A DNA stretch of 64,000 bases, from positions 110,958-174,957 of the forward strand of contig NZ_BOLN01000009.1 of NCBI RefSeq assembly GCF_016861655.1, read 5' to 3'. Made by a program: the position numbers and the translations under genes. Positions 1,535 to 54,886 of this stretch are shown piece by piece; position 1 is the first letter of the stretch, and each line of letters opens with the position of its first letter. Under the pieces are notes generated by a model that was not told the origin of the DNA, did no database searches, and was given only the letters and a program-made list of their open reading frames with translations. Source of the DNA: Levilactobacillus lanxiensis. Lineage in GTDB: Bacteria > Bacillota > Bacilli > Lactobacillales > Lactobacillaceae.

Positions 1535-1735
1535 TCCGCTTCCGGCGGCGGTCTTCGCTACCGCTGCTGTGGGGAACGACTGCGGCCTGAGAAGCGGTCC
1601 TCCGTCTCGCCTGAAAACCTCGCCAAGGGCGCGAGTTTTCCAGGTCGTCCCGTGTTGTAAGGCCGAGAAAGGCGCTCGGTCTAACAACACCGACACAGCT
1701 GCGTCCGCGAAACCGCCTCTGGTCGCTAACAACGG
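1535..1735 (-). repeat. structured intergenic element R1 (type A)
   Basis: A diverged type A copy, read on the minus strand from GCGACCAGAGG to the GGCGG end that faces the pdp 3' end. P2 is GGCGGT plus TCGC pairing with GCGA plus ACCGCC. The outer part of P3 is GTGTTGT/ACAACAC and P4 uses AAAAC/GTTTT, so all helices are kept with new sequences. One A-C mismatch in P3 goes against the strand preference seen in the other copies. Confidence 0.8.
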
Positions 1736-1841
1736 CTGAAAAGAGCCGGCTGACAAGGTTACCGTGTGGCTGGTGCGGGATGGGCGGGTGTCTGACACTG
1801 TTGATGTCCCTGGGCCGGTGTCGATCCTTTACGTGAATAGG

Positions 1842-1920
1842 TGCAGCCTGAGAAGCGGTCCGCCGGCATAGCTGCATCCGCATTGGTTTGCTAACAACAG
1901 TTAAAAGAGCTGGTTAGCGA
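1842..1920 (-). repeat. decayed fragment R2 of the type A element
   Basis: The stretch beginning GCAGCCTGAGAAGCGGTCC and running to CTAACAACAGTTAAAAGAGC matches two separated parts of R1 (about 1585-1605 and 1695-1750), with the middle deleted. It looks like a tandem copy that lost its hairpins. The bases between R1 and R2 (1740-1840) show nothing else recognisable. Confidence 0.6.
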
Positions 1921-1988
1921 AGTTGCGGTGATATGAGTTTCCAAACTAGTATTGCGGAAAACTTTACGTGAATGGTGGCCCAAACGTG

Positions 1989-2216
1989 TTGAAAATAAGC
2001 GGTCAATGTCAGTGACCAGAGGCGGGCCAAAGTCACCAGCTGTGTCGATGGTCTTAACTGAGTGGTTTTCTCAGTTTAGAGCATGGGACAACCTTTGAGA
2101 CCGTTCCCCAGGCTCAAAGTTGAGGTGGAAGCCCGCCCCACAGGCTGGAACCGGCCCCACAGCAGGGGACTTTGAGCCCGCCGCCGGGAACGAAAACCCA
2201 ACCCCGTATTTTCATT
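1989..2216 (+). repeat. structured intergenic element R3 (type A), upstream of gshA
   Basis: Core GTGACCAGAGG to GGGAACG lies at 2012-2192. P2 pairs CAAAGTC with GACTTTG and GGCGGGC with GCCCGCC. P3 is ACTGAG/CTCAGT and P4 is CAACCTTTGAG/CTCAAAGTTG. A short P1, TGAAAATA/TATTTTCA, closes it. The 3' end points at gshA, 128 bp away; 2217-2343 has no convincing promoter. Confidence 0.85.
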
Positions 2217-2343
2217 ATCCCGGTGGATGGGTTACTCACTAAATTTTTTTGAAAAAAGTTAGCCAATATCAGTGACACGGGCCCCTTTTTTGTTTACACT
2301 TTAGGTTAAATCAGTCATCTTAAGGTTAGGGGATGTTACCGCC

Positions 2344-3867
2344 ATGCTGGACAACTTATTAGCGGTTATTCGCGAAGAAAACTTATCAGAACAGCTTTAT
2401 CACAGCCTAGTGGGGCTAGAGATTGAAGAGCAGCGAATCGACCAGCATGGCCGGTTGAGCCGTCGCCCACACCCCAGCCAACTTGGGTCCCGGACTTTCC
2501 ATCCGTATTTTCAAACGGACTTCACCGAAAGTCAGTTGGAGGTCATCACCGACCCCAACCCCAATATCGGGGGCACGTTGGACCAACTCGATACGTTACA
2601 AACGGTGGCGTACCGCTCACTGGAGGGCGACGACCGTATCTGGCCGCTGAGCATGCCACCAGTGGTGGACGACACGGATCTGCAGTTTATCGCGGATCAC
2701 TTTGACCGGCCGGCGATTCGCCCATATCGGGAGTATTTGGTCAAAAAGTACGGCCTGCAGCACGGCTGTTTGACCGGCGTTCACGTCAACTACAGCTTGC
2801 CGGACCCCGTTATTCATCGCTTGTACAGCCATTACACCACCGAATTCAGTTCGCTGGTTGCCTTTAAAAATGCCTTGTACTTCCGGGTGGCCCAAAACTT
2901 TGTGCGCTACCAGTGGTTGTTGACGTACCTATTTGGGGCCAGTCCCATCGCGGAAAAGGGTTTCTTCGAGACCGTTCCGGCAGAGCTACAGGAACCCGTT
3001 CGCAGCATTCGTAACAGCCCTTACGGCTTCGTCAACTTCCCACAAGAACAGGTGACCTACGCCTCGCTGACGGCCCATTTAACGCAATTACAGGACCGGA
3101 TCGACGAGGGGACCTACTTCTCCGCGCATGAATTCTACGGGCCAGTGCGGCTCAAGGGGCGGGCCAACGCGCGTGACTTCCTGACTGGGGGTATCCAATA
3201 CCTGGAGCTCAGAGACTTTGACAACACGCCGTTCACGCCCAACGGGGTCAGTCGCCACGCCATGTACTTCCTGAAGATTTTCATGTTGTACCTGCTGACC
3301 CAACCGGAACCGGAGAATCTGGCAGAAACGCTGACGGCCGCGCGGACCAAGAACCAGACGGTCGCGTTGGAGAACCCCCTGACGGCCACGCAATATCAAC
3401 TGGAAGGGGAGCAGATCTTCCACGAAATGCGGGAGATGGCGCAGTCCTTACAGACACACATCGAGCAGTGGGATATCATCGACGACCTTGAGGAAGTCCT
3501 GACGCATCCCGAGTTAACGCCAGCGGCCAAGTTGTTGGCGCACGTTGAAGACGGCAGCTTGATGAAATTTGGGCAGGCCGTGGCGCGGAAATGGTATCAT
3601 GACCGTATCAACACGCCAGCACTGTTGCCACAGCTTCAGCAGCTGTCTGATCACGCCCAACGATTTGTGATGACCGCCTTACAAGCCGGCATTCGCTTCT
3701 ACCAGGTACGTGACGAGAACGGCGCCGACCTCCTGATGTTTACCTTTGATGGCATCACCCAGGTGTTGGAGGACCGCGATACCCGCGTGCCCGACGCCGA
3801 CGCCCGGTTGCGACAACTCTTCCCCGATTTACCGGCGTTACCAGCGCCCTTACATTACGAAAACTAA
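2344..3867 (+). CDS. gshA: glutamate-cysteine ligase
   Basis: The product joins L-glutamate and L-cysteine using ATP, the first step of glutathione synthesis, in the cytosol. It has 507 residues. The N-terminal part has the conserved GLEIEEQRI strand with metal- and ATP-binding acidic residues (about 24-32), the FTESQLEVIT segment (about 60-70) and IWPLSMPP (about 99-106). These are typical of the ligase module of the Firmicutes bifunctional GshAB (GshF). The protein stops at the length of that module and has no ATP-grasp GshB domain, so it should make gamma-glutamylcysteine only unless another synthetase exists elsewhere. It is a single-gene unit with R3 upstream and a bidirectional terminator downstream. 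Confidence 0.88.
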   Translation: MLDNLLAVIREENLSEQLYHSLVGLEIEEQRIDQHGRLSRRPHPSQLGSRTFHPYFQTDFTESQLEVITDPNPNIGGTLDQLDTLQTVAYRSLEGDDRIWPLSMPPVVDDTDLQFIADHFDRPAIRPYREYLVKKYGLQHGCLTGVHVNYSLPDPVIHRLYSHYTTEFSSLVAFKNALYFRVAQNFVRYQWLLTYLFGASPIAEKGFFETVPAELQEPVRSIRNSPYGFVNFPQEQVTYASLTAHLTQLQDRIDEGTYFSAHEFYGPVRLKGRANARDFLTGGIQYLELRDFDNTPFTPNGVSRHAMYFLKIFMLYLLTQPEPENLAETLTAARTKNQTVALENPLTATQYQLEGEQIFHEMREMAQSLQTHIEQWDIIDDLEEVLTHPELTPAAKLLAHVEDGSLMKFGQAVARKWYHDRINTPALLPQLQQLSDHAQRFVMTALQAGIRFYQVRDENGADLLMFTFDGITQVLEDRDTRVPDADARLRQLFPDLPALPAPLHYEN

Positions 3868-3870
3868 CGA

Positions 3871-3911
3871 AAAATGGCTCACACAAGCGCTAAACTTGTG
3901 TGAGCCATTTT
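3871..3911. terminator. bidirectional terminator between gshA and the permease
   Basis: A perfect 17-bp stem (AAAATGGCTCACACAAG and its complement) with a 7-nt loop is flanked by A and T runs, so it can serve both converging genes. Confidence 0.92.
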
Positions 3912-3913
3912 GA

Positions 3914-5236
3914 TTAATTGGTTGTTTTATGGCGTTGGTGCCAGAAGTAAATCGGCAGGCCAATCAGGGTGAGGATCAGCCCGGTGACGGCGAGGCCCGT
4001 TTCGGTGATCAGCGTGGTTGCCAGGATGAAAATCCCACCTACTAGCGCAATCAACGGAATCACGGGATAACCAGGGACCCGGTAAGGCCGGTTGAGCTCG
4101 GGTTCGGTCCGCCGCAACTTGAAGACGGCGATGAAGATGAGGCAGTTGAAGACCCACATCACGAACACCAGCATATCCGTTAAGAGATCAAAGCTTCCCA
4201 TGAACATCATGATTAAGGCGATGACAAACTGTACGCTTCCCGCAAAATAGGGCACGTAGGTCCGGCGAGACAGCTGGCGGAAGTATTTGGAAAAGGGCAG
4301 GCTGTCCTCTTCGGCCATGGCGAAGGGCACCCGCATCCCCGTCAGCGTGTAGCCGTTGATGGCGCCGTAGACGGAAATCAAGATCCCAATCGTGACCAGT
4401 TTCCCGCCAAATTGACCGAACAGCCGCATGGACGCGTCGGCCGCGGCGTTTTGGTTGCCCGCAATCAGGTCGATGGGTAACGTCTTCAAGAACACCAGGT
4501 TGACCAGCGTGTAAATCAGGGTGATGCCGGCCAGGCCAATGATGATGGCCCGCGGCAGGTCACGCTCGGGATGCTTCATTTCCCCGGCGATATTCCCAAT
4601 GCTGATCCAGCCGTCATAGGCAAACATCGTGGCCAACAGGCTGGAGCTAAAGGCGCTGCCCCAGTTGAGGTGGTCGCCGGTGGTAATCGGCCAGAGGTGA
4701 ATCGGGGCGTTGGCCGGCGCAAACAGGCCAAACCCGACGATGACGATAATGGGAATCAATTTAAAAATTAGGGCAATCGACTGAACGGACCCGCCGACCT
4801 TAGCGCCTAAAAAGTTCAGGCCAGTGATACTCAGGCCACACAGAATGGCGACCGGTAACTGCCAGGCACTGCTTAGATGGAACAGGGCAACCCATTGCGT
4901 CCCGAAAATAATCGAGAGGGCCGCGATGTTGGCGGGGTAATAGACCAGTAACTGGGCCCACCCCATTAAGAAACCGATGGGCTTGCCGTAAGCGTACTCC
5001 AGGTAACGCATGGCACCCCCGGTACGGGGAATCGCGGCGGCGAGCTCAGCACTCGTCAGACCCGCACAGATGGTCAAAATCCCACCCAAAATCCAAGCAG
5101 CCAGCGTCATGTTAGCGGAGTGGTTGGCAGCCACCACGCTAGCGGTCTTGAAGAATACCCCACCACCGATCACGGTTCCCATCACGGTTGCCAGGGCAGT
5201 AAACGTGCCGATTTCTCGGCGTAACTCCTTTGCCAA
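3914..5236 (-). CDS. APC-superfamily amino-acid permease (SteT/LAT-like)
   Basis: This 440-residue membrane protein has about 12 hydrophobic segments. Its first helix carries the unwound GTVIGGGVFF glycine motif (about 20-29) that binds the substrate backbone in the APC fold. The following TAGLTSAELAAAIPRTGGAMRYLEYAYG region is the classic APC signature around helix 3. The overall pattern is closest to serine/threonine exchangers and LAT-type transporters; the substrate cannot be read from sequence. The start is TTG at 5236, preceded by GGAG at 9-nt spacing on the minus strand. It is a single gene ending at a shared terminator. Confidence 0.85.
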   Translation of the reverse strand: MAKELRREIGTFTALATVMGTVIGGGVFFKTASVVAANHSANMTLAAWILGGILTICAGLTSAELAAAIPRTGGAMRYLEYAYGKPIGFLMGWAQLLVYYPANIAALSIIFGTQWVALFHLSSAWQLPVAILCGLSITGLNFLGAKVGGSVQSIALIFKLIPIIVIVGFGLFAPANAPIHLWPITTGDHLNWGSAFSSSLLATMFAYDGWISIGNIAGEMKHPERDLPRAIIIGLAGITLIYTLVNLVFLKTLPIDLIAGNQNAAADASMRLFGQFGGKLVTIGILISVYGAINGYTLTGMRVPFAMAEEDSLPFSKYFRQLSRRTYVPYFAGSVQFVIALIMMFMGSFDLLTDMLVFVMWVFNCLIFIAVFKLRRTEPELNRPYRVPGYPVIPLIALVGGIFILATTLITETGLAVTGLILTLIGLPIYFWHQRHKTTN

Positions 5237-5560
5237 AGTTTTAGACTCCTCTCTTCTCTCAGATGACTGATTTTACCATTATAGCACTTAAATTTAGCGT
5301 TGTGTGCGGTTGAACCAGAGATATGTGAAAGGATGTCATGACGGTGAGAAAGTGATTAGACGAGCAGGGAGGGGGTATTTAAGCAGTTATATTTTTGCGG
5401 GGATATTTAAGGGGTAAGTCGTTGTGGTGAACAACATGATTAGGCGGATATGTTTTGGGGTGGAATTGGATTGTTAGTAGCTATATTGGGAGTAAGTTCG
5501 GGCTTCTCGTACCGGTAAAACTGCATATATTACCCCAACCCCAACACCGTTGGTACGGGC
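5237..5560. other. intergenic region without recognisable genes
   Basis: This leader side of the permease gene has no open frame with a ribosome site and no clear hairpin. I see nothing definite beyond base composition more AT-rich than the flanking genes. Confidence 0.5.
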
Positions 5561-5570
5561 TAAACACGTG

Positions 5571-5823
5571 TCAGCCGCAGGGATGGTGAAAATCCACCAG
5601 TTATGGAAGTGACCAGAGGTGAGCCAAGGTGCCCAGCTGTGTCGGTGGTCTTGGCTGGGGTGCTTTCCCAGCCTAGCCCACGGGACAACCTTTGAGACCG
5701 AACCTCAGGCTCAAAGTTGAGGTGGAAGCCCGTTCTTCGGCTGGAACCGGCCCCATAGCAGGGCATCTTGAGCGCACCGCCGGGAACGAAAGAACCAGTA
5801 TATTTTCACCATCCCGGAGGCGA
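5571..5823 (+). repeat. structured intergenic element R4 (type A), at the gntP 3' side
   Basis: P1 pairs GGGATGGTGAAAAT (5580-5593) perfectly with ATTTTCACCATCCC near 5803-5816. P3 is GGCTGGG/CCCAGCC, P4 CAACCTTTGAG/CTCAAAGTTG, and P2 CAAGGTG/CATCTTG with one G-U pair. The 3' end faces the gntP stop codon, but gntP's own terminator (5840-5873) lies between. Confidence 0.9.
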
Positions 5824-5839
5824 CGTCTTTAGCCCAAAC

Positions 5840-5873
5840 AAAAAGGTCCGCCACCCCAGGGGGGCAGCGGACC
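5840..5873 (-). terminator. terminator of gntP (first copy)
   Basis: Stem GGTCCGC/GCGGACC with an inner CCCC/GGGG pairing; on the minus strand it is followed by TTTTTG. Confidence 0.85.
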
Positions 5874-5905
5874 AAGTGACGCTCGAATTAATTGTCAGAA
5901 AAATT

Positions 5906-7264
5906 CTAGTGGAACGCCATGTTCAGCAACAGAACAATCAGGATACCCACGATGGAAATCACAGTTTCCAGCACGGTCCAAATGCTCAACGTTTGCTTAA
6001 CAGTCAAATCGAAGTATTCACGGAACATCCAGAACCCGGCATCGTTCACGTGAGAAGCAGCTAAGGAACCAGCACCAATGGCCAGAACCATGAGAGCAGG
6101 GTCAACACCGGATTGGGCCATCAATGGGGCAACGATACCAGCAGCGGTCAAAGCAGAAACCGTTGCGGAACCTAAAGCCACACGGAGGACAACGGCGACT
6201 AACCAACCTAAGATCAGTGGGGACATGTTAGAGTCGATGAAGAGTTTGGCAACTTCTTTACCAACACCACCATCGATGAGGACTTGCTTGAAGGCCCCAC
6301 CACCACCGATAACTAACAGCAGCATAGCGATGGACTTAACAGCGTTTTCCAAGGTTGCCATGATGTCTGAGGTCTTACGTTTCCGACCCCAACCCATGGT
6401 GAACATTGCAACCATCAGGGAGATTAACATCGCGATGGCTGGGTCACCGATCAAGGCAACGATTTGGTCCAACATGGAGGCGTTCTTGGTAGGGGTTGCC
6501 CCACCGTCGACCGTCATCTTGTAGATGGTCGTGATGGCCATCAGGATAACTGGGAAGAGGGAAGTCAGAACGGACAGGCCAAAGCTAGGTGCTTCGGAAG
6601 GCTTGAAGGTCTTAACTTCACCCAAGGAAGATAAGTTCCCTTTACGAGCAAAGGCTTCTGGTGCAAATTTCTGAGCTAACTTGGTGAACATTGGCCCGGC
6701 AACGATGGCTGCAGGAATCGCAACAACTAAACCGAACAGGAGGACCTTACCATCATTGGCACCCAAGACTTGCGCAATGGCAACTGGTGCTGGGTGAGGT
6801 GGTAAGAACCCGTGGGTAACGGACAAAGCGGCTGCCATGGAAATCCCTAAGTAAAGGATTGGCACATCAGCTTCAACGGCGATGGCAAAGACGATAGGAA
6901 TTAACAGAACCATCCCAACTTCGAAGAATAGCGCGATACCCAGAATAAATGAAGCAAGCATAATAGCTAATTGGAGGCGTTTCTTACCAAATTTGTCGAT
7001 CAGTGTCGTGGCAATCACGTAAGCACCACCGGCGTCGGCAACTAACCGACCCAGCATGGCCCCGAAACCAAAGACCAAGGAGAGTTCGCCAAGTTGGCTC
7101 CCAATCCCAGATTCAATCGTCGTGGCGATTGTCGTGAGGTTCATGCCTAACAGAATGGCTGTTAAGACAGAAGTTAAAATCAGGGAAACAAAGGTGTTGA
7201 TCTTGAAACGAATAATGAGGACCAATAAGAAGATGACCCCGATAAGCAAAGCTAGTAGTTCCAT
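5906..7264 (-). CDS. gntP: gluconate:H+ symporter, GntP family (copy 1)
   Basis: This 452-residue membrane permease should import gluconate for the kinase and dehydrogenase upstream. It shows the GntP family pattern: alternating hydrophobic helices, VFGFGAMLGRLVADAGGAY (about 64-82), GFLPPHPAPVAIAQVLGA (about 151-168), and the C-terminal SLAASHVNDAGFW motif. ATG 7264 has AAAGGG ten bases upstream. It follows gntK on the same strand but a terminator (7296-7326) separates them, so it is probably transcribed partly from its own promoter. An operator-like AAAGTTTCAA at 7375-7384 resembles the gntZ promoter site. Confidence 0.92.
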   Translation of the reverse strand: MELLALLIGVIFLLVLIIRFKINTFVSLILTSVLTAILLGMNLTTIATTIESGIGSQLGELSLVFGFGAMLGRLVADAGGAYVIATTLIDKFGKKRLQLAIMLASFILGIALFFEVGMVLLIPIVFAIAVEADVPILYLGISMAAALSVTHGFLPPHPAPVAIAQVLGANDGKVLLFGLVVAIPAAIVAGPMFTKLAQKFAPEAFARKGNLSSLGEVKTFKPSEAPSFGLSVLTSLFPVILMAITTIYKMTVDGGATPTKNASMLDQIVALIGDPAIAMLISLMVAMFTMGWGRKRKTSDIMATLENAVKSIAMLLLVIGGGGAFKQVLIDGGVGKEVAKLFIDSNMSPLILGWLVAVVLRVALGSATVSALTAAGIVAPLMAQSGVDPALMVLAIGAGSLAASHVNDAGFWMFREYFDLTVKQTLSIWTVLETVISIVGILIVLLLNMAFH

Positions 7265-11278: not shown

Positions 11279-11333
11279 GACGTCCACCAATCAACTAAAA
11301 GTGAAGAAGCCAATTGGTCTTTGTCCGTGCCTT

Positions 11334-11514
11334 ACCGGGCGGCGAAAATAAACCGGAACGCTGTGGGCGGACGCCTGAAGCCGAAGAGCGGTCTTCAGAC
11401 TCGCTTTGAGCCTCGAAATGCGAGTCTCAGAGTCGCCAATTATCTAAACGGTCGGAATCAACCGTTAAGATAATTCCCACGGCTGAGTTTATTTTCGCCG
11501 CCCTCACGGCTGAC
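11334..11514 (-). repeat. structured intergenic element R5 (type B)
   Basis: P1 pairs GGGCGGCGAAAATAAAC (11337-11353) perfectly with its complement near 11487-11503. P3 combines ATTATCT/AGATAAT and AACGGT/ACCGTT, P4 is CTTTGAG-like, and P5 is CTGAAG/CTTCAG. The 3' end (plus-strand left side) faces the 3' end of the RpiR gene. It is head to head with R6. Confidence 0.88.
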
Positions 11515-11592: not shown

Positions 11593-11777
11593 GTGTTAGC
11601 CGCAGGGGGCGTGAGAATGGGCTTAGCCGTGGGAATGTTCTTAGCGACGGTCTGTGCCGGTTAGAACATTGATATCTTTGAGACACCTGGGTGGCTCAAA
11701 GTAAGCGCGGAGACCGCTCTTTGGCTCCGGGCGTTCGCCCACAGCGTTCCGGTCCCATTCTCACACCCCCGGAGGCG
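11593..11777 (+). repeat. structured intergenic element R6 (type B)
   Basis: P1 is GGGGGCGTGAGAATGGG with CCCATTCTCACACCCCC, one bulge. P3 is ATGTTCT/AGAACAT, P4 CTTTGAG/CTCAAAG, P5 CGGAG/CTCCG. The 3' end faces the GH25-like gene at 11920. Confidence 0.88.
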
Positions 11778-13532: not shown

Positions 13533-13717
13533 AGTGACCAGAGGCGGGCCAAACCGGCCAGCTGTGTCGATGGTCTTAGCTGAGTGATTTTCTCAGGTTA
13601 GACCATGGGCCGACCTTTGAGACCGTTCCTCAGGCTCAAAGTCGAGGTGGAAGCCTGCTCCATAGGCTGGAACCGGGTCCCATAGCAGGCCGGTTTGAGC
13701 CCGCCGCCGGGAACGAA
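13533..13717 (+). repeat. structured intergenic element R7 (type A)
   Basis: P2 pairs CAAACCGG with CCGGTTTG and GGCGGGC with GCCCGCC. The outer part of P3 is ATGGTCT/AGACCAT. P4 uses the CGACC/GTCG version. No clear P1. The 3' end is 58 bp before the oxidoreductase start. Confidence 0.85.
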
Positions 13718-16195: not shown

Positions 16196-16268
16196 GGCCC
16201 TATAGCACAACTGGATAGGGCACTCGCCTCCTAAGCGAATGATCCCGGTTCGAGTCCGGGTGGGGCCA
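16196..16268 (+). tRNA. trnR: tRNA-Arg (anticodon CCU)
   Basis: The acceptor stem GGCCCTA/TGGGGCC, T arm with GGTTCGAGTCC and anticodon loop CTCCTAA with CCU at 16230-16232 are clear. Discriminator A is at 16268 and CCA is not encoded. The D stem has an A-G mismatch and the first anticodon-stem pair is C-A, which is unusual. It reads rare AGG codons. Confidence 0.92.
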
Positions 16269-16782: not shown

Positions 16783-17017
16783 GTTGAAAATGGGTGAACC
16801 CGTGTGAGTGACCAAAGGCGGATCAAGGTGACCGGCTGTGTCGCTGGTGTTGGCCGGGGTTCTTTCCCGGCCTACAGCAGGGGGCGACCTTGGAGACGAG
16901 GGCTTCGGCTTCAAGGCGAACTGGAAGCCCGTCCTTTGGCTGGAAGTGTCCCCCACAGCAGGGCACCTTGAATCCGCCGTCGGGAACGGCAAGCTGAGTC
17001 CACCCATTTTCACCAAC
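16783..17017 (+). repeat. structured intergenic element R8 (type A), upstream of usp
   Basis: Closing stem TGAAAATGGGTG/CACCCATTTTCA. P2 pairs GGCGGAT/ATCCGCC and CAAGGTG/CACCTTG, P3 GGCCGGG/CCCGGCC, and P4 has changed on both sides to CCTTGGAG/CTTCAAGG with one G-U. The -10 box of usp (17049-17054) lies after the element. Confidence 0.9.
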
Positions 17018-20883: not shown

Positions 20884-21108
20884 GTGAGAACTGGTTCTAC
20901 AGTCAGCCGTGAGGGCGGGAAAAATGGACTCAGCCGTGGGAGTTCTCTTAGCAGCGGGCTGTGTTGCTTAGAGAACTGGTGTCTTTGAAACTCGCCTTTT
21001 GAGGTTCAAAGCAAGTCCGAAGACCGCTCTTTGGCTTCGGACGGCCGCCCCAGCGTTCCAGTCCATTTTTCCCGCCCGGTAAGGTGAGTGCAAGAACCAG
21101 TTCTCGCT
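20884..21108 (+). repeat. structured intergenic element R9 (type B)
   Basis: An outer arm pair GAGAACTGGTTCT/AGAACCAGTTCTC extends P1 (GGGCGGGAAAAATGGAC and complement). P3 is AGTTCTCT/AGAGAACT, P4 CTTTGAA/TTCAAAG, P5 GTCCGAAG/CTTCGGAC. The 3' end faces wecB; the TGCTATAAT box of wecB lies beyond it. Confidence 0.9.
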
Positions 21109-23374: not shown

Positions 23375-23606
23375 TAGAAGATGGCTTGGTGGCCGTGAGT
23401 GACCAGAGGCGGGCCAACCTGACCAGCTGTGTCGGTGGTCTTGACTGGGTGATTTTCCCAGTTTAGAGCACGGGACGACCTTTGAGACCGGTTTTCAGGG
23501 CTCAAAGTCGAGCTGGAAGACCGCTCCTCAGGCTGGAAGCGACCCCACAGCAGGGCAGTTTGAATCCACCGCCGGGAACGAAGGATACCAACTAACCCAT
23601 CTTCTA
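23375..23606 (+). repeat. structured intergenic element R10 (type A)
   Basis: P1 is unlike the other copies: TAGAAGATGG (23375-23384) pairs perfectly with CCATCTTCTA (23597-23606), ending 4 bases before the ribosome site of the next gene. P3 is GACTGGG/CCCAGTT (one G-U), P4 uses the CGACC/GTCG version. The sequence from the previous stop (23190) to 23374 shows no terminator. Confidence 0.88.
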
Positions 23607-24667: not shown

Positions 24668-24891
24668 GCCTAAAATACTGCCAACGTCAGTGACCAGAGG
24701 CGGGCCAAGGTGACCAGCTGTGTCGATGGTCTTAGCTGAGTGTTTTTTCTCAGCTTAGAGCATGGGACAACCTTTGAGACCGCACCCCAGGCTCAAAGTT
24801 GAGGTGGAAGCCCGTCCTTTGGCTGGAAGCGACCCCACAGCAGGGCAGGTTGAGCCCGCCGCCGGGAACGAAAGTGCTAGTCAGTTTTAGG
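24668..24891 (+). repeat. structured intergenic element R11 (type A), reaching into the flavodoxin gene
   Basis: The left arm GCCTAAAATACTG (24668-24680) pairs with CAGTTTTAGGC (24882-24892), which includes the flavodoxin stop codon. P3 is AGCTGAG/CTCAGCT, P4 CAACC/GTTG type. P2 keeps GGCGGGC/GCCCGCC but its inner part has mismatches. The element lies between the flavodoxin stop and the shared terminator. Confidence 0.87.
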
Positions 24892-27935: not shown

Positions 27936-28144
27936 AGTGTTCACCTCATTCGTGTGAGTTGGGTGGTGCTAGTTTCTGATTGGCATTAGTATAGCGTTGT
28001 TTGGTGAGAGGGAGGGTTGGTGGCGTTAGTCGATATGGCTGGTGAAAAATATAATCAGAGTCTACCTGACACAACTGGCTGTTTTAGTGAGTGATAAAAC
28101 AGAATAAGAACCGACGAGAAAACAATGTGGCTGGGTTGAACTAG

Positions 28145-28402
28145 TGTCAGCCGCAGGGCTGGGGAAACTGGGCCGGTCGTGGAAGTGACCAGAGGCGAGC
28201 CAAGGTGCCTGGCTGTGTCGATGGTCTTGGCTGGAGTTCTTTTCCAGCCTAGTCCATGGGACGACCTTTGAGACCGATCTTTGGCTCAAAGTCGAGGTGG
28301 AAGCCCGTCCCTTAGGCTGGAACCGGCCCCACAGCAGGGCACCTTGAGCTCGCCGCCGGGAACGGACGCGACCAGGCCCAGTTTTCACCAGCCCGGAGGC
28401 GG
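28145..28402 (+). repeat. structured intergenic element R12 (type A)
   Basis: P1 GGGCTGG plus GAAACTGGGCC pairs with GGCCCAGTTTTC plus CCAGCCC. P2 is GGCGAGC/GCTCGCC with CAAGGTG/CACCTTG, all perfect. P3 is GGCTGGA/TCCAGCC, P4 CGACC/GTCG type. The left side (27950-28140) contains nothing recognisable. The 3' end faces ntdP, whose promoter lies beyond. Confidence 0.9.
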
Positions 28403-28512
28403 TGCGGTTAGCCCTAATCCAGTTGATTAAGTTAATTTTACTGGGGATAGGCGCAATTCAACAGGTTTTGTGGCGCATAATCGGTCTGAACCTATTCAAG
28501 GAGCGCCAAATC

Positions 28513-29220: not shown

Positions 29221-29396
29221 GCGCCTCCGGGTCGGTGAAAATAGGCCGGAACGCTGTGGGCGCCGCCCGGAGCCGAAAGGCGGTCTCCGGACTTACTTTG
29301 AGCCGAAGGTCACGTCTCAAAGATAGCAGTTGCCTAAGCGGGAAACCCGCTTAGGCAACTCCCACGGCTGACGTGGGTTTAGCCCCGTAGCCAAAT
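29221..29396 (-). repeat. structured intergenic element R13 (type B)
   Basis: P3 is a 15-bp perfect stem AGTTGCCTAAGCGGG/CCCGCTTAGGCAACT. P5 is CCGGAG/CTCCGG and P4 CTTTGAG-like. P1 is the weakest of all full copies because the distal arm no longer matches GGTGAAAATAGGCC. It faces the ntdP 3' end. The following 29400-29600 holds nothing recognisable. Confidence 0.82.
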
Positions 29397-29605: not shown

Positions 29606-29862
29606 GTGTGAGCCGCAGGGCTGGTGAAAATGGGCCAGTCGTGGCAGTGACCAGAGGCGCGCCAAGGTGCCCGGCTGTGTCGATGACCTTGGCTGGCGTT
29701 CTTTGCCAGCCTAGTTCATGGGACAACCTTTGAGACCGCACCTCAGGCTCAAAGTTGAGGTGGAAGCCCGTCCTTTGGCTGGAACCGGCCCCACAGCAGG
29801 GTACCTTGAGCGCGCCGCCGGGAACGAACGCGACGAGGGCCATTTTCACCAGCCCGGAGGCG
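29606..29862 (+). repeat. structured intergenic element R14 (type A)
   Basis: P1 pairs GGGCTGGTGAAAATGG with its perfect complement. P2 is GGCGCGC/GCGCGCC, P3 GGCTGGC/GCCAGCC with outer ATGA/TCAT, and P4 the CAACC/GTTG type. The 3' end is 49 bp before the AI-2E permease start. Confidence 0.9.
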
Positions 29863-34610: not shown

Positions 34611-34883
34611 CGCGCCTCCGGGCTGGTGAAAACTGGGCCTGGTCGCGGTGGTTTTCCGTTCCCGGCGGCGAGCTCAAGACGCCCTGCTGTGGGGCCGGTT
34701 CCAGACTGCGGGGCGGTCTTCCACCTCAACTTTGAGCCTGAGAAGCGGTCTCAAAGGTTGTCCCATGGGCTAAGCCGAGTGAGAAACCTCGGCTAAGGCC
34801 ATCGACACAGCTGGTCATCTTGGCTCGCCTCTGGTCACTAACAACGACCTGGCTGGGCCCAGTTTTCCAGCCCTGCGGCTGAC
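34611..34883 (-). repeat. structured intergenic element R15 (type A), after tagF
   Basis: P1 is GGGCTGGTGAAAACTGGGCC with a near-perfect partner. P2 is GGCGAGC/GCTCGCC with CAAGATG/CGTCTTG (one G-U). P3 is AGCCGAG/CTCGGCT. It lies between the tagF stop and the shared terminator, in opposite sense to tagF. Confidence 0.9.
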
Positions 34884-36066: not shown

Positions 36067-36159
36067 GAGTTATGTTGGAAAATAAGTTAGTGAATCCTGA
36101 AGATTAGGGCTGGCGGGCACAAAAGCTACATAGTTACGGGCTAAGACGATAGGAGCCGA

Positions 36160-36325
36160 GAGGGTGGTCAAAAATAGACTCAGCCGTGGGATTTAAGTAG
36201 CGGTTCGCTACTTAAATGGCGACTTTGAAACTCGATTCTCAGAGGTTCAAAGCGAGCGCAGAGACCGTTATTTGGCTCTGGGCGTCCTGACCACCGCGTT
36301 CCGGTCTATTTTTGACCGCCCGGCA
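36160..36325 (+). repeat. structured intergenic element R16 (type B)
   Basis: P1 GGTCAAAAATAGAC pairs with GTCTATTTTTGACC. P3 is ATTTAAGTAGCG/CGCTACTTAAAT with a 3-nt loop, P4 CTTTGAA/TTCAAAG, P5 CAGAG/CTCTG. The 3' end lies 15 bp from the stop of the minus-strand gene at 36341. Confidence 0.9.
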
Positions 36326-37182: not shown

Positions 37183-37366
37183 GAGTGACCAGAGGTGGGC
37201 CAAGATGGCCAGCTGTGTCGATGCTCTTGGCTGAGTGATTTTCTCAGCTTAGAGCATGGGACGACCTTTGAGACCGGTCTTAGGGCTCAAAGGCGAGGTG
37301 GAAGACCGCTCCTCAGGCTGGATCCGGTCCCCATAGCAGGACATCTTGAGCCCACCGCCGGGAACG
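37183..37366 (+). repeat. structured intergenic element R17 (type A), upstream of prfC
   Basis: P2 is GGTGGGC/GCCCACC with CAAGATG/CATCTTG, perfect. The outer P3 is ATGCTCT/AGAGCAT and the inner part GGCTGAG/CTCAGCT with one G-U. P4 is CCTTTGAG/CTCAAAGG. An extended -10 of prfC, TGTTAAAAT at 37404-37412, follows the element. Confidence 0.88.
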
Positions 37367-39074: not shown

Positions 39075-39330
39075 CGCCTCCGGGCCGGTGAAAACTGGGC
39101 CTGGTCGCGTCCGTTCCCGACGGCGTGCTCAAGGCGCCCTGCTGTGGGGCCGGTTCCAGCCGAAGGGCGGGCTTCCACCTCAACTTTGAGCCGAAGAGCG
39201 GTCTCAAAGGTTGTCCCATGGGCTAGGCTGGGAAAATACCCCAGCCAAGACCATCGACACAGCTGGTCGCCTTGGCTCGCCTCTGGTCACTTCCACGACC
39301 GGCCCCAGTTTTCCCAGCCCTGCGGCTGAC
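39075..39330 (-). repeat. structured intergenic element R18 (type A), after prfC
   Basis: P1 is GGTGAAAACTGGGCC and its complement with small bulges. P2 inner part is CAAGGCG/CGCCTTG, P3 GGCTGGG/CCCAGCC. It begins 16 bp after the prfC stop and precedes the terminator at 39395. Confidence 0.88.
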
Positions 39331-39394
39331 GCGGGTTTAGCCCGTGCGGTAGTGGTTACTGGCGGCTTGCGCCATTTAACATCAAATACTAGCG

Positions 39395-39435
39395 AATCCC
39401 AATCATTTCATATTCTGAGGTGGTTGGGATTTTTG
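39395..39435 (+). terminator. terminator after prfC and R18
   Basis: AATCCCAATCA with TGGTTGGGATT and a T run; long loop. Confidence 0.75.
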
Positions 39436-39438
39436 TAT

Positions 39439-39532
39439 ACCCCAGCCAAGACCACCGACACAGCTGGTCACCTTGGCTCGCCTCTGGTCAGCCACAACTG
39501 GCCCAGTTTTCCCAGCTCTGCGGCTGACACGA
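39439..39532 (-). repeat. partial element R19, duplicate of the distal half of R18
   Basis: The 39436-39586 stretch repeats 39236-39389, including non-element flank up to ATCAAATAC, with many substitutions. Only the 5' half of the element is present. The following 39587-39880 has no recognisable feature apart from the leader of the next gene. Confidence 0.75.
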
Positions 39533-39882
39533 GTTTAGCCCGTTGGGTAGTGGTTGCTAGTGGCTTATGCCATTAAGATCAAATACAAATGAAGCTCAGC
39601 CATTTCGATTGTGAAGTAGGTGAGTTTTTTGTGCATCTTTAACAGTTCGGTTGGTAGCTGGTTACACGGAATGTGGCCGCTAATCGGTCTAGTCTAAAAC
39701 CGCCACGATTCCCAGTAATTCAACATCCCCACAACTATCCCGTCATTTTTCGAAGGTTTCCCTTCGGATTTTGCGTGTAAGCCCCGTCATAAATCCAGTT
39801 CTGTTACACTATAAACGAAATAATAATCTTGAAAATTGATGGTGCCCCATAATCGTTTGGGGGATGGAGAGGAGCGATTGCG

Positions 39883-46510: not shown

Positions 46511-46700
46511 GTTCGTTCCCGGCGGCGGGCTCAAGACGGCCTGCTGTGGGGTCGGTTCCAGCCGAAGGGCGGGCTTCCACCTCAACTTTGAGCCGTAGTG
46601 CGGTCTCAAAGGTTGTCCCATGCTCTAAACTGAGAAAATCGCTCAGTTAAGACCATCGACACAGCTGGCCGTCTTGGCCCGCCTCTGGTCACTGACATAG
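46511..46700 (-). repeat. structured intergenic element R20 (type A), after pepD
   Basis: P2 pairs CAAGACGG with CCGTCTTG and GGCGGGC with GCCCGCC. P3 is AACTGAG/CTCAGTT and P4 the CAACC/GTTG type. It lies between the pepD stop and the terminator at 46783. Confidence 0.88.
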
Positions 46701-49850: not shown

Positions 49851-49937
49851 GGTTTTATATAATTCAGCGTTTAGTAATTGTGATGGTTATCTATCAAACA
49901 CAGGAACCAGCGCAATCGAACTTGGCATAATCAGTCT

Positions 49938-50122
49938 CAGTGACCAGAGGCGGATCAACTTGACCAGCTGTGTCGATGGACTTAGCTGAGGTTTCCCACT
50001 CAGCTTAGCCCATGGGACGACCTTTGAGACCGATTCTCAGGCTCAAAGTCGAGGTGGAAGCCTGAGAATCAGGCTGGAACCGACCCCACAGCAGGGCAGG
50101 TTGAATCCGCCGCCGGGAACGA
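49938..50122 (+). repeat. structured intergenic element R21 (type A)
   Basis: P2 is GGCGGAT/ATCCGCC with CAACTTG/CAGGTTG (one U-G). P3 is AGCTGAG/CTCAGCT, P4 CGACC/GTCG. Short P1 pairing GAACT/AGTTC reaches the stop codon region at 50143. An extended -10 (TGG CATAAT, 49923-49931) lies just upstream. Confidence 0.88.
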
Positions 50123-50142
50123 AACGAAATCACAACCCAGTT

Positions 50143-51243
50143 CTAAGCGTAAGCGACAAGGGCGAGGCGGACGTAGCGCGCATTAATGTAAGCGTCCGGC
50201 CCAATCTGGTACCAGACCAGCTGCTGATCATCCACGATGCGGCCACGAATATCCAGCGCCTCCCCGTGGTCGAGCTGGCCAGCCGTTTCGCCATAAGGTT
50301 CGTGGTAAATGGATACGGCCTTGCCCGGCACGTAGTCAACCGTGCCAATCCGTTCAAAGGGTTCGGGGTGCCACTGGTCGGGCTCGGGTAAACCGAGGTC
50401 GATGAACTGGTGTTCACGCCGCACGGTTTCCTTGGCCGACAACCACTGCTCACCACCGAGGTTATACCAAACGTCGCCGTTGGTCAGGGTGATAATCATG
50501 AATAAGCGCCACAGCGAATCCGTGGGGAACTGATACCCGTAAGCCTGGCCGTTGGGGCCATCGAAAACCTGATGGTCGGCCTGCAGAAAGACAAACTGGT
50601 GGACCCGCTGGACCATTTGCCAGGAATCTCGCCGGTAGTAGTAAACGACCTGCCCGGGGTGCTGGCTAAAGGTGCCCCGTTGTTGGCCCTGAGCCTGAAA
50701 GATGTGGTAGTTTTCAACGGAAGGTGGGGTCATCGAGAAGGCCGTGCCCAATCTCCCGCGAAGAATTCCGGGGAGTTCCAGCAACCGGCCGGTATCGTAA
50801 TCGACCAGGTAGCTAATGATGGGTTGTCCCCAGTGTCGGACGTAGACCAGGGTGGTCAAGCCGTATTCTGAAATGTAGTCTTGGGTGAACCCGTGTACAT
50901 CACGGAGAGCGTATCCCGCAATTTTAGGAAAGCGGAAGTTGACCGGCTGGTTGAGGACGCCGGTGAGGACCAAGGCAGGTTGCAGCGGCTGATTTTGGTT
51001 ATCCACTAATCGGACCACCAGGGTTGCCGCTACCTGAGAAGCCTTCGCAACCGGTTTGGGTGTCGTTGGTGGTGCCGGTGAGACGGGTGTTGGGGCTAAG
51101 GGCAGGGACGTGGCACGGGGTTCGGGTGCTTCTTGCGGAATCGGCGTGGGCTCAGGTCGCCGTCGCGTTTGGGCGTGGCGTGGTCGCCGTTTGGGTGCCT
51201 GATTCGGTTCAATCACTCGTCGTAACCAGTCAAAAAAAGCCAT
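50143..51243 (-). CDS. MucBP-like and SH3-like domain protein, no signal peptide
   Basis: The 366-residue product begins MAFFDWLRRVIEP, then a basic and Pro-rich linker (about 15-67). Two beta modules follow (about 72-205) resembling MucBP repeats: VVRLVDNQNQPLQPA with FPKIAGYALRDVHGF, and LVYVRHWGQPIISYLVDYDTG. The C-terminal 60 residues (IYHEPYGETAGQLDHGEALDIRGRIV to NARYVRLALVAY) resemble a bacterial SH3 domain. These are usually extracellular, yet no signal peptide is seen. GGAGGTGAAAGG precedes ATG 51243. Confidence 0.7.
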   Translation of the reverse strand: MAFFDWLRRVIEPNQAPKRRPRHAQTRRRPEPTPIPQEAPEPRATSLPLAPTPVSPAPPTTPKPVAKASQVAATLVVRLVDNQNQPLQPALVLTGVLNQPVNFRFPKIAGYALRDVHGFTQDYISEYGLTTLVYVRHWGQPIISYLVDYDTGRLLELPGILRGRLGTAFSMTPPSVENYHIFQAQGQQRGTFSQHPGQVVYYYRRDSWQMVQRVHQFVFLQADHQVFDGPNGQAYGYQFPTDSLWRLFMIITLTNGDVWYNLGGEQWLSAKETVRREHQFIDLGLPEPDQWHPEPFERIGTVDYVPGKAVSIYHEPYGETAGQLDHGEALDIRGRIVDDQQLVWYQIGPDAYINARYVRLALVAYA

Positions 51244-51360
51244 GTCCTTTCACCTCCTGAAGTTTCCATTAAAATATTAGTCTATAGCTTACAGTATACC
51301 GCATTCTGCGGGTGCATTGCAGGTCCTTTTGCAAAACGCTTCCAGAGATTGTTTAGGCAA

Positions 51361-51395
51361 CAAAAAACGACGCCTCGCAAGTCGCGAGGCGCCGT
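51361..51395 (-). terminator. terminator of clpE
   Basis: ACGACGCCTCGC with GCGAGGCGCCGT, T run on the minus strand. Confidence 0.88.
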
Positions 51396-51406
51396 TAAAA
51401 ATGCAG

Positions 51407-53644
51407 TTACTTTTTATCAGTCGTTGGTTCGGCTGCTGCCGGTTGGGCAGTGTCCGTGTCAGCGGCTAAGACAATCTTGCCATCTTCAATCTTGGCCACG
51501 AGGTTCTTAACGTCCGCGTGATCCAGGTAGAAGTCCGCAATCCGGTCTTCGATTTCTTCTTGAATGACTCGCCGTAATGGCCGAGCGCCCATTGCTGGGT
51601 TGTAGCCCTTCGTGACGAGTTGTTCTTCGACGGGTGTCGTGACGTGGATGTGGAGGCCTTGGCCCGCAAGCATCTGGTTGACGTCACCAATCATTAAGTC
51701 AACAATGTGCATCAAGTTTTCCTTGCTGAGCGAGTTGAATTCAATGATGTCATCGAATCGGTTCAAGAATTCTGGCTTGAAGTAAGCGGTCAGATTGCCC
51801 AGAACGGAGTGGGTCTTGCCCTCGGCAGCGGCACCGAAACCAACGTTGGCTTCAGCATCGCCGGTCCCGGCGTTACTGGTCATGATGATCAACGTATCCT
51901 TGAAGGAAACGGTCCGACCTTGAGAATCGGTCAACCGGCCGTCGTCAAGAATTTGTAAGAACATGTTCATGACGTCGGGGTGGGCCTTCTCAATTTCGTC
52001 CAGTAAGATCAAGGTGTACGGGTGCCGACGAACTTGTTCCGTCAGCTGACCGGCTTCTTCATAGCCGACATAGCCAGGTGGGGACCCAATCAATTTCGAA
52101 ATGGAATGTGGTTCCATGTACTCAGACATGTCGAACCGAATCATGGCCTCCTGGGAGCCGAAGAGTTCATTGGCTAATTGCTTAGCTAATTCCGTCTTCC
52201 CAACACCAGTTGGACCGACGAAGAGGAAGGACCCGATTGGCCGGCCCGTGCCGTTCAACCCAATACGGTTCCGGCGGATAGCCCGCGCAACCTTGTCGAC
52301 GGCTTCGTTTTGACCAATGACGTGCTTTTCCAAATCAGGGGAGAGGCTTTGCAGTTGATGTTGTTCCTTGGCTGCTAACTCACCCACGGGGATGGACGTC
52401 TTTTCTTCGACGATGTCCTGCATGTCCTTGACAGTAACCGTGGCCGACTGATTTTGATCAGCGGTCTTGGCGTTTTCCTTGGACTTCTCTAACTTCGTGA
52501 CTTGATCACGGTAGTAGGCGGCCTTTTCGTAGTCTTCCTGCTTCAAAGCAGCCTGCTTCTGTTCCTCGGAGCTCTTGATTTTTTCATCAATTGCCTTAGG
52601 ATCAGCCACGTTGATCGTTAAGTTCTTCCGTGAACCGGCTTCATCCAACAGGTCAATGGCCTTGTCCGGTAAGAACCGGTCTTGGATGTAACGGTCAGAC
52701 AGGCGAACGGCAGCCTCGATGGCGTCGTCCGTGTAGTGTACGTGGTGGTAATCTTCGTACTTCTTTTGGATGCCTTGTAAAATCTTGACAGCTTCATCGG
52801 CACTCGGTTCATCAACCGTGACGGGTTGGAACCGACGGGCGAGGGCTTGGTCCTTTTCAATATCTCTGTATTCATTTAAAGTCGTGGCCCCGATGAGTTG
52901 GAAGTCACCCCGAGCTAAGGCTGGCTTCAACACGTTACCAGCGTCCATGCCACCCTCGGCATTGCCGGCACCCATGATTTCATGGATTTCGTCAATAAAG
53001 AGGATGATGTCCGGATTACTCTGAACTTCCTTCATCAATTGTTGCATCCGTTGTTCAAATTGGCCCCGGATCCCAGTTCCTTGAACCAGGGAAACCACGT
53101 CCAATCGAATAATTTGTTTGTTGGCTAATTTTTGGGGAACGTTGCCTTCAACAATCCGTTCCGCAAGGCCTTCAATGACGGCCGTCTTCCCAACACCGGC
53201 TTCCCCAATTAAAACGGGGTTGTTCTTGGTCCGGCGATTGAGAATTTCGATGACTTGAGCCGTCTCTTTGTCGCGCCCAATAACGGGGTCAACCTTGCCA
53301 TCCTTAGCTAGTTTGGTCAGGTTCAAGCCATACTGACTGAGTAGGCCATTGCCGTTTCCTTGGTTACCAGCAGGTTGGGTTGGTTGACCAGGTTGCTGCG
53401 CACCGGATTGCCGGTAGTCAGCTTGGTCGTTGTTGCCGCCTTGCATTGCCCGGAAAATATCATCCAGGTTACCAAAGCCGAATGGATCTTGTGCCATACG
53501 GCCACCTCCATTTCCAGAATCGTTTTGTTGCTGCTTCAGCAGTTGATAACAATTTTGGCATAGGTCAACTTGTTGCCGCTGCCCATTTACACTCATGTAA
53601 AGGTGAATCGTTGCTTCATTGCGGTGGCAATTTTGACATAGCAT
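51407..53644 (-). CDS. clpE: ATP-dependent Clp protease ATP-binding subunit ClpE
   Basis: This AAA+ unfoldase of 745 residues delivers damaged proteins to ClpP. It starts with the ClpE-specific zinc finger ([15 protein letters not shown] then [11 protein letters not shown]), followed by a Gln/Asn-rich linker, the first AAA domain ([22 protein letters not shown]), a UVR-like coiled segment ([22 protein letters not shown]) and the second AAA domain ([21 protein letters not shown]). ATG 53644 follows GGAG; the longer frame to 53782 runs through the CtsR operator. Control by CtsR and possibly HrcA is visible upstream. Confidence 0.96.
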
Positions 53645-53709
53645 CTTGTCGTCTCCTTTCTTGCCTGGAATTCTCGTGGGAAACCCACGCAGGTCTGTGT
53701 GAGAAAAGT

Positions 53710-53734
53710 TTTGACCTTTCTTGACCATTGACCA
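53710..53734 (-). promoter_or_regulatory. CtsR operator, three GGTCAA repeats
   Basis: On the minus strand GGTCAA, TGGTCAAGAA and AGGTCAAA follow in tandem directly after the -10 box; the last two match the CtsR heptad repeat with 3-bp spacing. Confidence 0.88.
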
Positions 53735-53735
53735 C

Positions 53736-53763
53736 ATTATACCGCGTTCGACCTGCCGTGCAA
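53736..53763 (-). promoter_or_regulatory. clpE promoter
   Basis: Minus strand TTGCAC (53758-53763), 16 bp, TATAAT (53736-53741). Confidence 0.8.
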
Positions 53764-53823
53764 GTAATTTGTTTCGCGACAAAATCAGCGGTAATCATGG
53801 CATTTCCAGCGAACAATTTTATT

Positions 53824-53850
53824 CTAGCACTCTCGGTAGTAGAATGCTAA
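53824..53850. promoter_or_regulatory. CIRCE-like element (HrcA site)
   Basis: CTAGCACTC, nine bases, GAATGCTAA: two mismatches to TTAGCACTC-N9-GAGTGCTAA. A TAGAAT box on the minus strand overlaps it. Confidence 0.65.
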
Positions 53851-53891
53851 AATCGACTCCTGATTTCTCCTATTTTTCCCAAACCGTGGTG

Positions 53892-54109
53892 AAATTTGGT
53901 GCTGGGTTTTCGTTCCCGGCGGCGAATTCAAGATGCCCTGCTATGGGGTCGGTTCCAGCCGAAGGGCGGGCTTCCACCTCAACTTTGAGCCATAGGGCGG
54001 TCTCAAAGGTTGCCCCATGGGCTAGGCTGAGAAAGAACCTCAGCCAAGGCCATCGACACAGCCGGGCACCTTGATTCGCCTCTGGTCACTGACAGGGGGT
54101 ACCAAATTT
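53892..54109 (-). repeat. structured intergenic element R22 (type A), upstream of clpE
   Basis: P1 is locus-specific: AAATTTGGT (53892-53900) with ACCAAATTT (54101-54109). P2 is GGCGAAT/ATTCGCC with CAAGGTG/CATCTTG (one G-U). P3 is GGCTGAG/CTCAGCC. Tandem with R23, both pointing to clpE. Confidence 0.88.
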
Positions 54110-54130
54110 AATGGTCGGTGGGTATATGTA

Positions 54131-54314
54131 CATTCCCGGCGGTGAGCTCAAGCCAGTCTGTTGTGGGGAATATCCAGCCTGAGGGGCGGTCTTCCGCCTC
54201 GCCTATGAGCCTGGAGAGCGGTCTCATAGGTCGTCCCGTGTTCTAGGTAGGGGAGTGCACCCAACCAAGAACACCGACACAGTTGCCTGGCTTGGCTCAC
54301 CTCTGGTCACTGAC
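54131..54314 (-). repeat. structured intergenic element R23 (type A), tandem with R22
   Basis: P2 is GGTGAGC/GCTCACC with CAAGCCAG/CTGGCTTG. The outer P3 is GTGTTCT/AGAACAC and P4 is CCTATGAG/CTCATAGG. The flank ATCAAATTTAACG resembles the R22 flank ACCAAATTTAATG, so the two probably arose by duplication. Confidence 0.87.
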
Positions 54315-54329
54315 ACGGGTGCATCAAAT

Positions 54330-54690
54330 TTAACGATTAGCCGTGGTTGCATTGTATTACGTGTACGTGGTTATAGAGTGAGTTGGTGGGGATCGTGTCA
54401 CGCGTTTCTGATTAGTTGTTGAGATTTGTCGGCTGATAGACTACATAAAATTTTTAGCAGCAACCGTGTGCTCTACTGCATTTGTACTTTAGTGGTTGTG
54501 GAACTATTAATGTGGGAAGGAACGGAACGTTTGATTCTGGATTAGAGATGCGCGATAATTTAAGCACTGCTTGTAAATACAAGAGAAACGCAGAAACAAC
54601 CTGTTGAAATATCCCAAGTATCTGTCACAATGGTTGAAGCAAACTTGTTGTGACGATTACAAAAGATTGATCACGGCTGAGTGACTGTTT
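54330..54690. other. intergenic region without recognisable genes
   Basis: 360 bp of AT-rich sequence between R23 and R24. All frames are short and lack ribosome sites; no clear hairpin. Confidence 0.45.
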
Positions 54691-54694
54691 CAAC

Positions 54695-54886
54695 GTGAGT
54701 GACCAGAGGCGGGTCAAGTTGACCAGCTGTGTCGATGGTCTTAACTGAGTGAACTTCTCAGTTTAGAGCATGGGACGACTTTGAAGACACGTGATTTTCG
54801 TGGCTTTAAAGCGAGGTGGAAGACCGCTCCTCAGGCTGGAACCGTTCCCCACAGCAGGGCAGCTTGAACCCGCCGCCGGGAACGGT
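54695..54886 (+). repeat. structured intergenic element R24 (type A)
   Basis: P2 is GGCGGGT/ACCCGCC with CAAGTTG/CAGCTTG (one U-G). P3 is AACTGAG/CTCAGTT, P4 CTTTGAAG/CTTTAAAG (one G-U), and a short P1 AACGTG/CACGTT. Its 3' end is 46 bp before the next gene. Confidence 0.87.

Follow-up and report, generated by a model that had tools for sequence, protein, structure and literature searches.

Like the element described here, bcr1 of the Bacillus cereus group, ERIC and REP/BIME lie between genes in many copies and have palindromic or RNA-like folds, but they belong to other hosts. BOX, RUP and SPRITE of Streptococcus pneumoniae resemble it as small interspersed repeats that are foldable if transcribed, high in copy number and slow in present movement (PMC3049150). 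A resemblance of the outer ends prompted us to consider kinship with BOX, and this candidate was set aside: the BOXA1R primer sequence and a degenerate form of it had no exact match in 262 loci, a pattern that covers the primer only, so that kinship is still conceivable. The nearest RNA in Rfam is SSRC8_2, a Northern-positive small RNA of S. pyogenes that is described as one sRNA gene (PMC3675131). The two are alike in having two successive hairpins with a GAGACC...GGCUC motif on the same strand; they differ in that the present element is dispersed and has a variable P3 and closing stem. For L. brevis CD0817, 214 interspersed repeats are given without detail in PMC6534642, and the survey in PMC2267715 covers L. 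johnsonii rather than L. brevis. Literature searches, of which only some were aimed at lactobacilli, turned up no title or abstract opening describing the element, in a collection with a minority of the subscription papers and no bioRxiv preprints, so that an earlier description may exist.

Results

Profile searches of the window, the whole 64,000-nucleotide stretch of Levilactobacillus lanxiensis DNA analysed here, showed that a single structured element, with a core of about 180 bases, is present there in 22 complete or nearly complete copies and as one fragment. Copies occur in both orientations. Type A copies were found both by the nhmmer profile and by a covariance model (R1) on the forward strand at 2013-2192 (R1 137 bits), 5610-5788 (where genome G012 carries first a type A and then a type B copy), 13535-13715, 16809-16988, 23400-23580 (142 bits), 24691-24870 (predicted to fold with a long copy-specific outer stem), 28186-28364, 29648-29826 (in a gap that is devoid of copies in each of the five other species compared), 37186-37366, 49941-50121 and 54700-54884 (144 bits, the window's best), and on the reverse strand at 34657-34837, 39112-39289, 46514-46691, 53911-54088 and 54132-54309, the last of these diverged and with no partner at the equivalent place in G012. 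The reverse-strand copy at 1540-1724 is A/C-like (75 bits with the A profile, 119 with R1) and scores highest with the profile of a third type, C. Type B copies, again found by both searches, lie at 11333-11511 (reverse, R1 70 bits), 11598-11773 (forward, 49.5), 20905-21081 (forward, 60), 29225-29380 (reverse, 55) and 36154-36325 (forward, 41.5), and a type A fragment at 39437-39490 (reverse) belongs to a roughly 200-base tandem duplication missing from G012. A 38-base piece allowed up to three mismatches occurred eight times in the window and never in 100 shuffles.

The roughly 24 copies counted in a first-pass annotation of this DNA were borne out, with 17 A-like and five B-like copies besides the A fragment. 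Its two subfamilies are present as well, with the correction that A and B belong to one family that also includes C. R1, whose source was A- and C-type cores, recovered all five B copies among its 22 complete cores, together with two weak partial matches.

In the predicted fold the core is closed by a stem and contains a long hairpin (P3) besides an inner helix that surrounds two further hairpins. These two, P4 and P5, each have the cap GAC...GGC, in which an A adjoins the stem in 115 of 122 copies (P4) and in 87 of 121 (P5). The outer arms are specific to each copy; for the group as a whole, pairing extends beyond the core by 50-70 nt in type A and 30-50 nt in type B. Both-side changes were seen at 23 of 29 core pairs, and paired cells amounted to 97.7%, compared with 81.9% in shuffled and 33-49% in slid controls. 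Not one of 500 shuffles reached the observed value on any of five covariation measures. When column pairs were ranked by G-test, helix pairs took the top 6 of 7,787 places in a plain MAFFT alignment (A1) and the top 7 of 6,979 in alignment A4, which, like A3, was aligned to the model and is biased toward its pairs. The earlier proposal of selection on one shared structure, for which a covariation test had been suggested, is supported by these results, and the alternative pairings it had listed for P2, P3 and P4 were present in the alignments for the part of that list inspected.

G-U cells outnumbered A-C cells in the cores in three counts (119 to 16, 77 to 8 and 32 to 8), an excess that marks one strand, and RNAalifold gave -77.5 for 53 type A cores against -47.6 on the opposite strand. 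Compensatory changes above background and a one-strand G-U excess are both seen within the genus, but in 26 distinct remote copies the excess is absent (9 G-U and 10 A-C), which counts against an RNA reading. No strand preference was seen in the outer arms.

At curated thresholds Rfam gave no match to the element in the window, and with relaxed filters two copies gave chance-level matches only; in this the Levilactobacillus copies differ from SSRC8_2. The statement that the fold belongs to no named family therefore stands above threshold, but below it remote copies match SSRC8_2 (RF02616). The gathering threshold of 72 bits was not reached in any locus searched, the best score being 61 bits, in remote copies; four of these matched the whole model (positions 1-281) with E-values of 1.4e-14 to 8.3e-13. 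The tandem hairpins of the SSRC8 core occur on the same strand in the remote f4/f5 copies only, at about model positions 145-210.

About 160 copies were counted in 575 kb of the same genome, a fifth of it, where cores of some 180 bases alone make up about 5% of the sequence; extrapolated, the whole genome would hold about 840. The window's 23 copies are a slice of this genome-wide set. The wider search with covariance models that the first-pass annotation had envisaged found the element in 34 of 35 Levilactobacillus genomes (the own genome counted), in other Lactobacillaceae genera and in two additional families, where relatives have the same arrangement, with up to 123 copies per genome across this search. 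Element types vary between species. L. brevis carries it as well, all 97 candidates scored in one genome (G003) having matched.

In 20 orthologous copies compared between sister species, pairs below 88% identity being left out, paired core positions had changed in 1.6% of 1,148 cases and unpaired ones in 9.2% of 1,401 (P = 3e-18, on the counts of 18 and 129 that these rates imply). Divergence was 15.3% at fourfold sites, 12.0% at third codon positions and 7.0% in element-free intergenic DNA, and 7.3% over all core columns with converted copies included. Paired-base divergence below both unpaired and fourfold divergence indicates that the resident copies are constrained as a group. Among 55 paralogous copies, paired and unpaired positions differed nearly alike (0.229 and 0.280). 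A count of one-sided mutations in 18 orthologous pairs with 60 flanking bases counts against our reading, however, with 92 pairings kept and 95 broken, about as in controls; in cores alone, at 90% identity or more (8 pairs), 20 of 31 mutated pairs were kept.

In gaps with a single copy the 3' end of the core lies close to a gene irrespective of gene orientation, and the 3' side was the shorter one in 57 of 63 sole copies. Orientation relative to the neighboring genes showed no bias (22, 16, 13 and 12), unlike that of an ordinary cis-regulator. The 5' side carries some 200 bases whose divergence is close to the fourfold rate. Every 25-base bin from -225 to -26 diverges by at least 11%, a point against our reading in a count that includes a misaligned copy at window position 46514. 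The idea of a hypervariable 5' segment above the neutral rate was dropped, because that one copy had inflated it and without it divergence is about 16%, equal to the fourfold rate. Promoter-like sites were not enriched 5' of copies, and a small excess in one bin vanished against shuffles. Terminator-like sites were present at 21% of the 61 gene ends faced by a core within 90 bases, compared, among element-free ends, with 48% where genes converge (42 ends) and 58% where they lie in tandem (106 ends), and with 53-56% where the core lies further off, a deficit that is biased because the element itself occupies the searched space.

Discussion

We suggest that the element is most likely an RNA, dispersed over the genome and retained because of the way it folds. 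Given the covariation of paired positions, the single strand to which the G-U pairs point and the conservation of paired bases in sister species, each copy is probably transcribed and probably retained for the RNA structure it forms, which likely does its job where the copy sits. That the element acts as a structured RNA we regard as highly probable; for the full explanation, a structured RNA that is transcribed, kept for its folded form and ascribed a boundary role, we would give a probability of roughly 0.5. Transcription would enter from the 5' side, the P4/P5 pair would likely form a putative protein-binding site, and the folded head may end or hold back the transcript before the neighboring gene, each copy working as a local transcript boundary. 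The boundary role itself is a tentative proposal. Most copies would date from copying events before the sister species separated, and hairpins may still be exchanged between copies by gene conversion.

A selfish non-autonomous element of MITE- or REP-like type would need the fold only while being copied, as RNA or single-stranded DNA, by a partner enzyme, and its resident copies would have no function. The very high copy number, the lack of orientation bias and the differences in type between species fit such an element, as do the differing places that copies occupy from one species of the genus to another; a 783-base gap that holds two copies measures 112-177 bases, and is empty, in the five others compared. 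We nonetheless consider it rather unlikely, given the constraint on paired bases of resident copies and the agreement with G012, where 35 of the 40 copies on one contig are matched by a copy at the equivalent place and on the same strand; the aligned blocks of G012 are 92-97% identical. No clean empty site was found among the indels inspected (8 of 14 against G012, 6 of 26 against L. mulengensis and 5 of 9 between G019 and G002), and no target site duplication could be read from them, the junctions not being sharp. These presence and absence events proved to be tandem duplications, deletions leaving a remnant, hairpin swaps or unrelated indels, or were insufficiently sharp. With 40 candidates scored per genome, a G019 copy missing in G002 had no paralogue that exceeded 89%, and its leader matched its own place only among candidates scored in four genomes, so that 5' transduction by retroposition was rejected. 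As regards terminal inverted repeats of the MITE kind, the outer arms are complementary within a copy and largely copy-specific. A search of the own genome covering the Y1 transposase and reverse transcriptase families found two Y1 genes and one RT gene, none with a copy inside and just one with a copy nearby; the 3 kb of one Y1 locus (L200) are free of copies, and at the other (L201) a copy and an IS605-like TnpA/TnpB pair lie about 1 kb apart. Split copies flanking a gene were sought as an autonomous partner and gave two loose pairs, neither convincing. At blastn sensitivity, types A and C had no match in 72,556 plasmid records, and type A had none in 50,697 phage records.

A set of redundant, SSRC8-like small RNAs that act in trans, with a constant head and unconserved leaders, seems improbable. 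The SSRC8 transcript was detected by Northern blot as well as circular RACE, and the relatives that other streptococci have, as given in Table 4 of that report, align over part of its second half only (PMC3675131), the aligning part containing P4 and P5. But constraint on single copies is hard to explain when there are hundreds of them, and a promoter signal is absent. The weakest alternative, a DNA-level palindrome whose arms are kept complementary by template-switch correction and which would act, if at all, as cruciforms, suits the outer arms as copy-specific inverted repeats without strand preference and the equal G-U and A-C counts of the remote copies, but is very unlikely in view of the 119 to 16 excess in cores of the genus, whose copies lie in both orientations, and of the A kept beside P4.

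A more far-reaching reading may be stated, which we regard as a long shot: a chromosomal repertoire in Lactobacillales of up to hundreds of RNAs over three families, each joining a common protein-binding head (P1-P5) to an individual, unconserved leader some 200 bases long, the whole being used as a system of guide-like or addressable RNAs.

A small RNA of S. pyogenes that is a single gene in Rfam is now linked to a dispersed element of lactic acid bacteria. The element offers a natural library, many variants of one fold within one cell and relatives in nearly every genome of the genus, including that of L. brevis, a well-studied food bacterium, and such a library can serve to study the function of a repeated RNA and to look for the protein that recognizes it.

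Results

The core of the element, about 130 bases long, has three hairpins, P3, P4 and P5, the last two of them enclosed by an inner helix. Type A copies also carry an outer stem and a long stem, P2; types B and C have different closing stems. The covariance model R1, built from type A and C cores only, also detects B copies, and the types are therefore treated as one family. A recurrent internal loop (GCC-GCA-GG / CC-GGA-GGC) lies near the outer end of the closing stem in several copies, for example at window positions 28132-28409, and P5 has a 3x3 purine-rich loop similar to that of the closing stems' outer ends.

The extensive covariation claimed in the first-pass annotation was borne out. 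RNAalifold predicted 29 pairs from a MAFFT alignment of 34 cores (A1), 23 of them with changes on both sides. In these pairs 97.7% of cells were paired, against 81.9% in shuffled and 33-49% in slid controls, two-sided cells numbered 161 against 48.8 in controls, and none of five measures was matched by shuffles (0/500). Because shuffles are blind to relatedness, all column pairs were additionally ranked by an APC-corrected G-test, which works without a tree and falls short of a full R-scape test; helix pairs took ranks 1-6 of 7,787 in A1, whose alignment did not use the model, and 1-6 of 7,688 and 1-7 of 6,979 in two sets aligned to the model (A3 and A4). Some column pairs just below the top ranks resemble extensions of the same helices.

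G-U cells outnumbered A-C cells by 119 to 16 in 122 copies of the L. lanxiensis genome, and by 77:8 and 32:8 in two other sets. The replication strand does not account for the excess, since copies occur in both orientations. The preference is absent from the outer arms, and among 26 distinct copies from other families the ratio was 9:10, which counts against the strand claim for those families.

The 3.03-Mb genome carries the element in large numbers. For the 64-kb window the first-pass annotation had given about 24 copies; a profile search gave 23, and R1 gave 22 complete copies and two weak partial matches. An extra type A fragment stems from a stretch of about 200 bases that is duplicated in tandem (window 39304-39574); the sister-species genome lacks this duplication. 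Across 574,957 bases R1 found 122 copies on contigs C1 and C2 and 39 on C9 (E up to 0.001), a total of about 160, as one copy split at a stretch boundary was counted twice; extrapolation gives about 840 copies per genome. The profile search, fragments included, gave 178. Called genes overlap 3 of 147 complete copies, a figure biased by the gene caller, which had discarded ORFs that were more than 30% element.

A DNA search found the element in 15 of 40 genomes, own included, all of the genus; the exact core pattern is present in L. mulengensis, L. wangkuiensis and L. cerevisiae, among the matches listed. R1 extended this to 34 of 35 genus genomes, own included (at most 97 candidates scored per genome), with G021, where it finds no copy, the sole exception. 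Copy places vary from species to species across the genus. With at most 8 candidates scored per genome, R1 matched 26 of 395 genomes of the order: the genus accounts for 7, the own genome among them, the remaining genera of the family for 15, and families f4 and f5 for 4. When up to 150 were scored, three genomes from elsewhere in the family, outside the genus, held 146, 120 and 22 copies, and eleven further genomes 2 to 22. A second model, R2, built from seven f4/f5 copies, matched 73 of the 395 genomes (65 of f4/g4, 4 of f5/g12; at most 9 scored per genome) and counted 52 copies in G164, 123 in G379, 4 in G186 and 7 in G393. In G379, a genome of another family, copies also occur in runs: 1.5 kb of locus L256 holds five, and 0.5 kb of locus L259 holds three. 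At blastn sensitivity, plasmids yielded no type A or C copy and phages no type A copy.

The first-pass annotation had placed the element in no named family, and Rfam likewise gave no convincing match for it within the window, where the sole above-threshold match is a tRNA gene (16196-16268). The f4/f5 loci match RF02616 (SSRC8_2) with E down to 1e-14, yet below its threshold, and on the same strand as R1 or R2. These matches suggest that f4 is Streptococcus. PMC3675131 reports SSRC8 in S. pyogenes, shown by Northern blot and circular RACE, and stretches homologous to part of its second half in other streptococci.

Contig C9 is collinear with the sister-species genome in blocks 92-97% identical, and 35 of its 40 copies have a same-place, same-strand partner; 5 are found here only, and 11 of 46 only in the sister species, three of them outside the aligned part. 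In the 20 orthologous pairs with identity of at least 88%, 1.6% of paired positions (n=1,148) and 9.2% of unpaired positions (n=1,401) differ (Fisher P 3e-18, on counts implied by the rates), as compared with 15.3% at fourfold sites, 1.7% at first codon positions and 10.8% in the outer flanks. Fifty-five paralogous copies vary nearly alike at paired and unpaired positions (0.229 and 0.280), so that the low ortholog figure does not reflect paired positions that are invariant in general. One-sided changes in the 20 pairs comprised 10 pair-keeping and 6 pair-breaking, and the single two-sided change was kept; in the 8 pairs of cores at least 90% identical, 20 of 31 changed pairs were kept.

At several orthologous places blocks have been swapped, probably by gene conversion, for instance a B core for an A core within the same outer stem. 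On C9, hairpin blocks or entire cores have been traded between subfamilies at 23456, 23954 and 29000. In a looser test with 60 flanking bases (18 orthologous pairs), 218 base pairs were mutated and 24 of them showed a two-sided change that kept pairing, compared with 15/1,131 and 7/871 in two control sets, and conversion blocks may account for part of the two-sided changes; one-sided changes were kept in 49%, close to the control level (41% and 45%).

Sixty-three copies stand alone in their gap, with flanking genes in four orientation classes of 22, 16, 13 and 12. The 5' side is the longer in 57 of the 63 (medians 250 and 50). Divergence per 25-base bin on that side is 16-25% from -200 to -26 and 11% at -225 to -201, or about 16% once one misaligned copy, which inflates bins, is subtracted; on the 3' side it is 3-6% in most bins and 10.6% directly after the core. 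Terminator-like sites occur at 21% of 61 gene ends faced by a core within 90 bases, a low share in part because the element fills the space. Ends without an element have such sites in 48% (n=42) and 58% (n=106), and ends with a more distant core in 56% (n=18) and 53% (n=32).

Two other loci lie in the same genome. An IS605-like pair (L201, G000:C2:168653-169018 region) encodes a Y1 transposase (139 aa) and a TnpB-like protein (436 aa), with one element copy about 1 kb off. The other, L202 (G000:C4:76966-77523 region), has a gene for a reverse transcriptase of 354 aa downstream of a 303-aa gene; this may be a diversity-generating retroelement and may belong to a prophage.

Discussion

Judged by the covariation controls, the G-test and G-U counts, and the divergence of paired and unpaired positions between orthologs, the element in Levilactobacillus is a predicted structured RNA that is strand-marked and constrained. 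The nearest kind of element is that of BOX, RUP and SPRITE, as described in PMC3049150. The main rival to a constrained RNA is a purely selfish element.

We infer that the element would be transcribed and bound by protein. The 5'/3' asymmetry, the divergence and the terminator deficit suggest, short of proof, that it may also serve as a local transcript boundary. Exchanges between subfamilies would blur the phylogenies of the copies.
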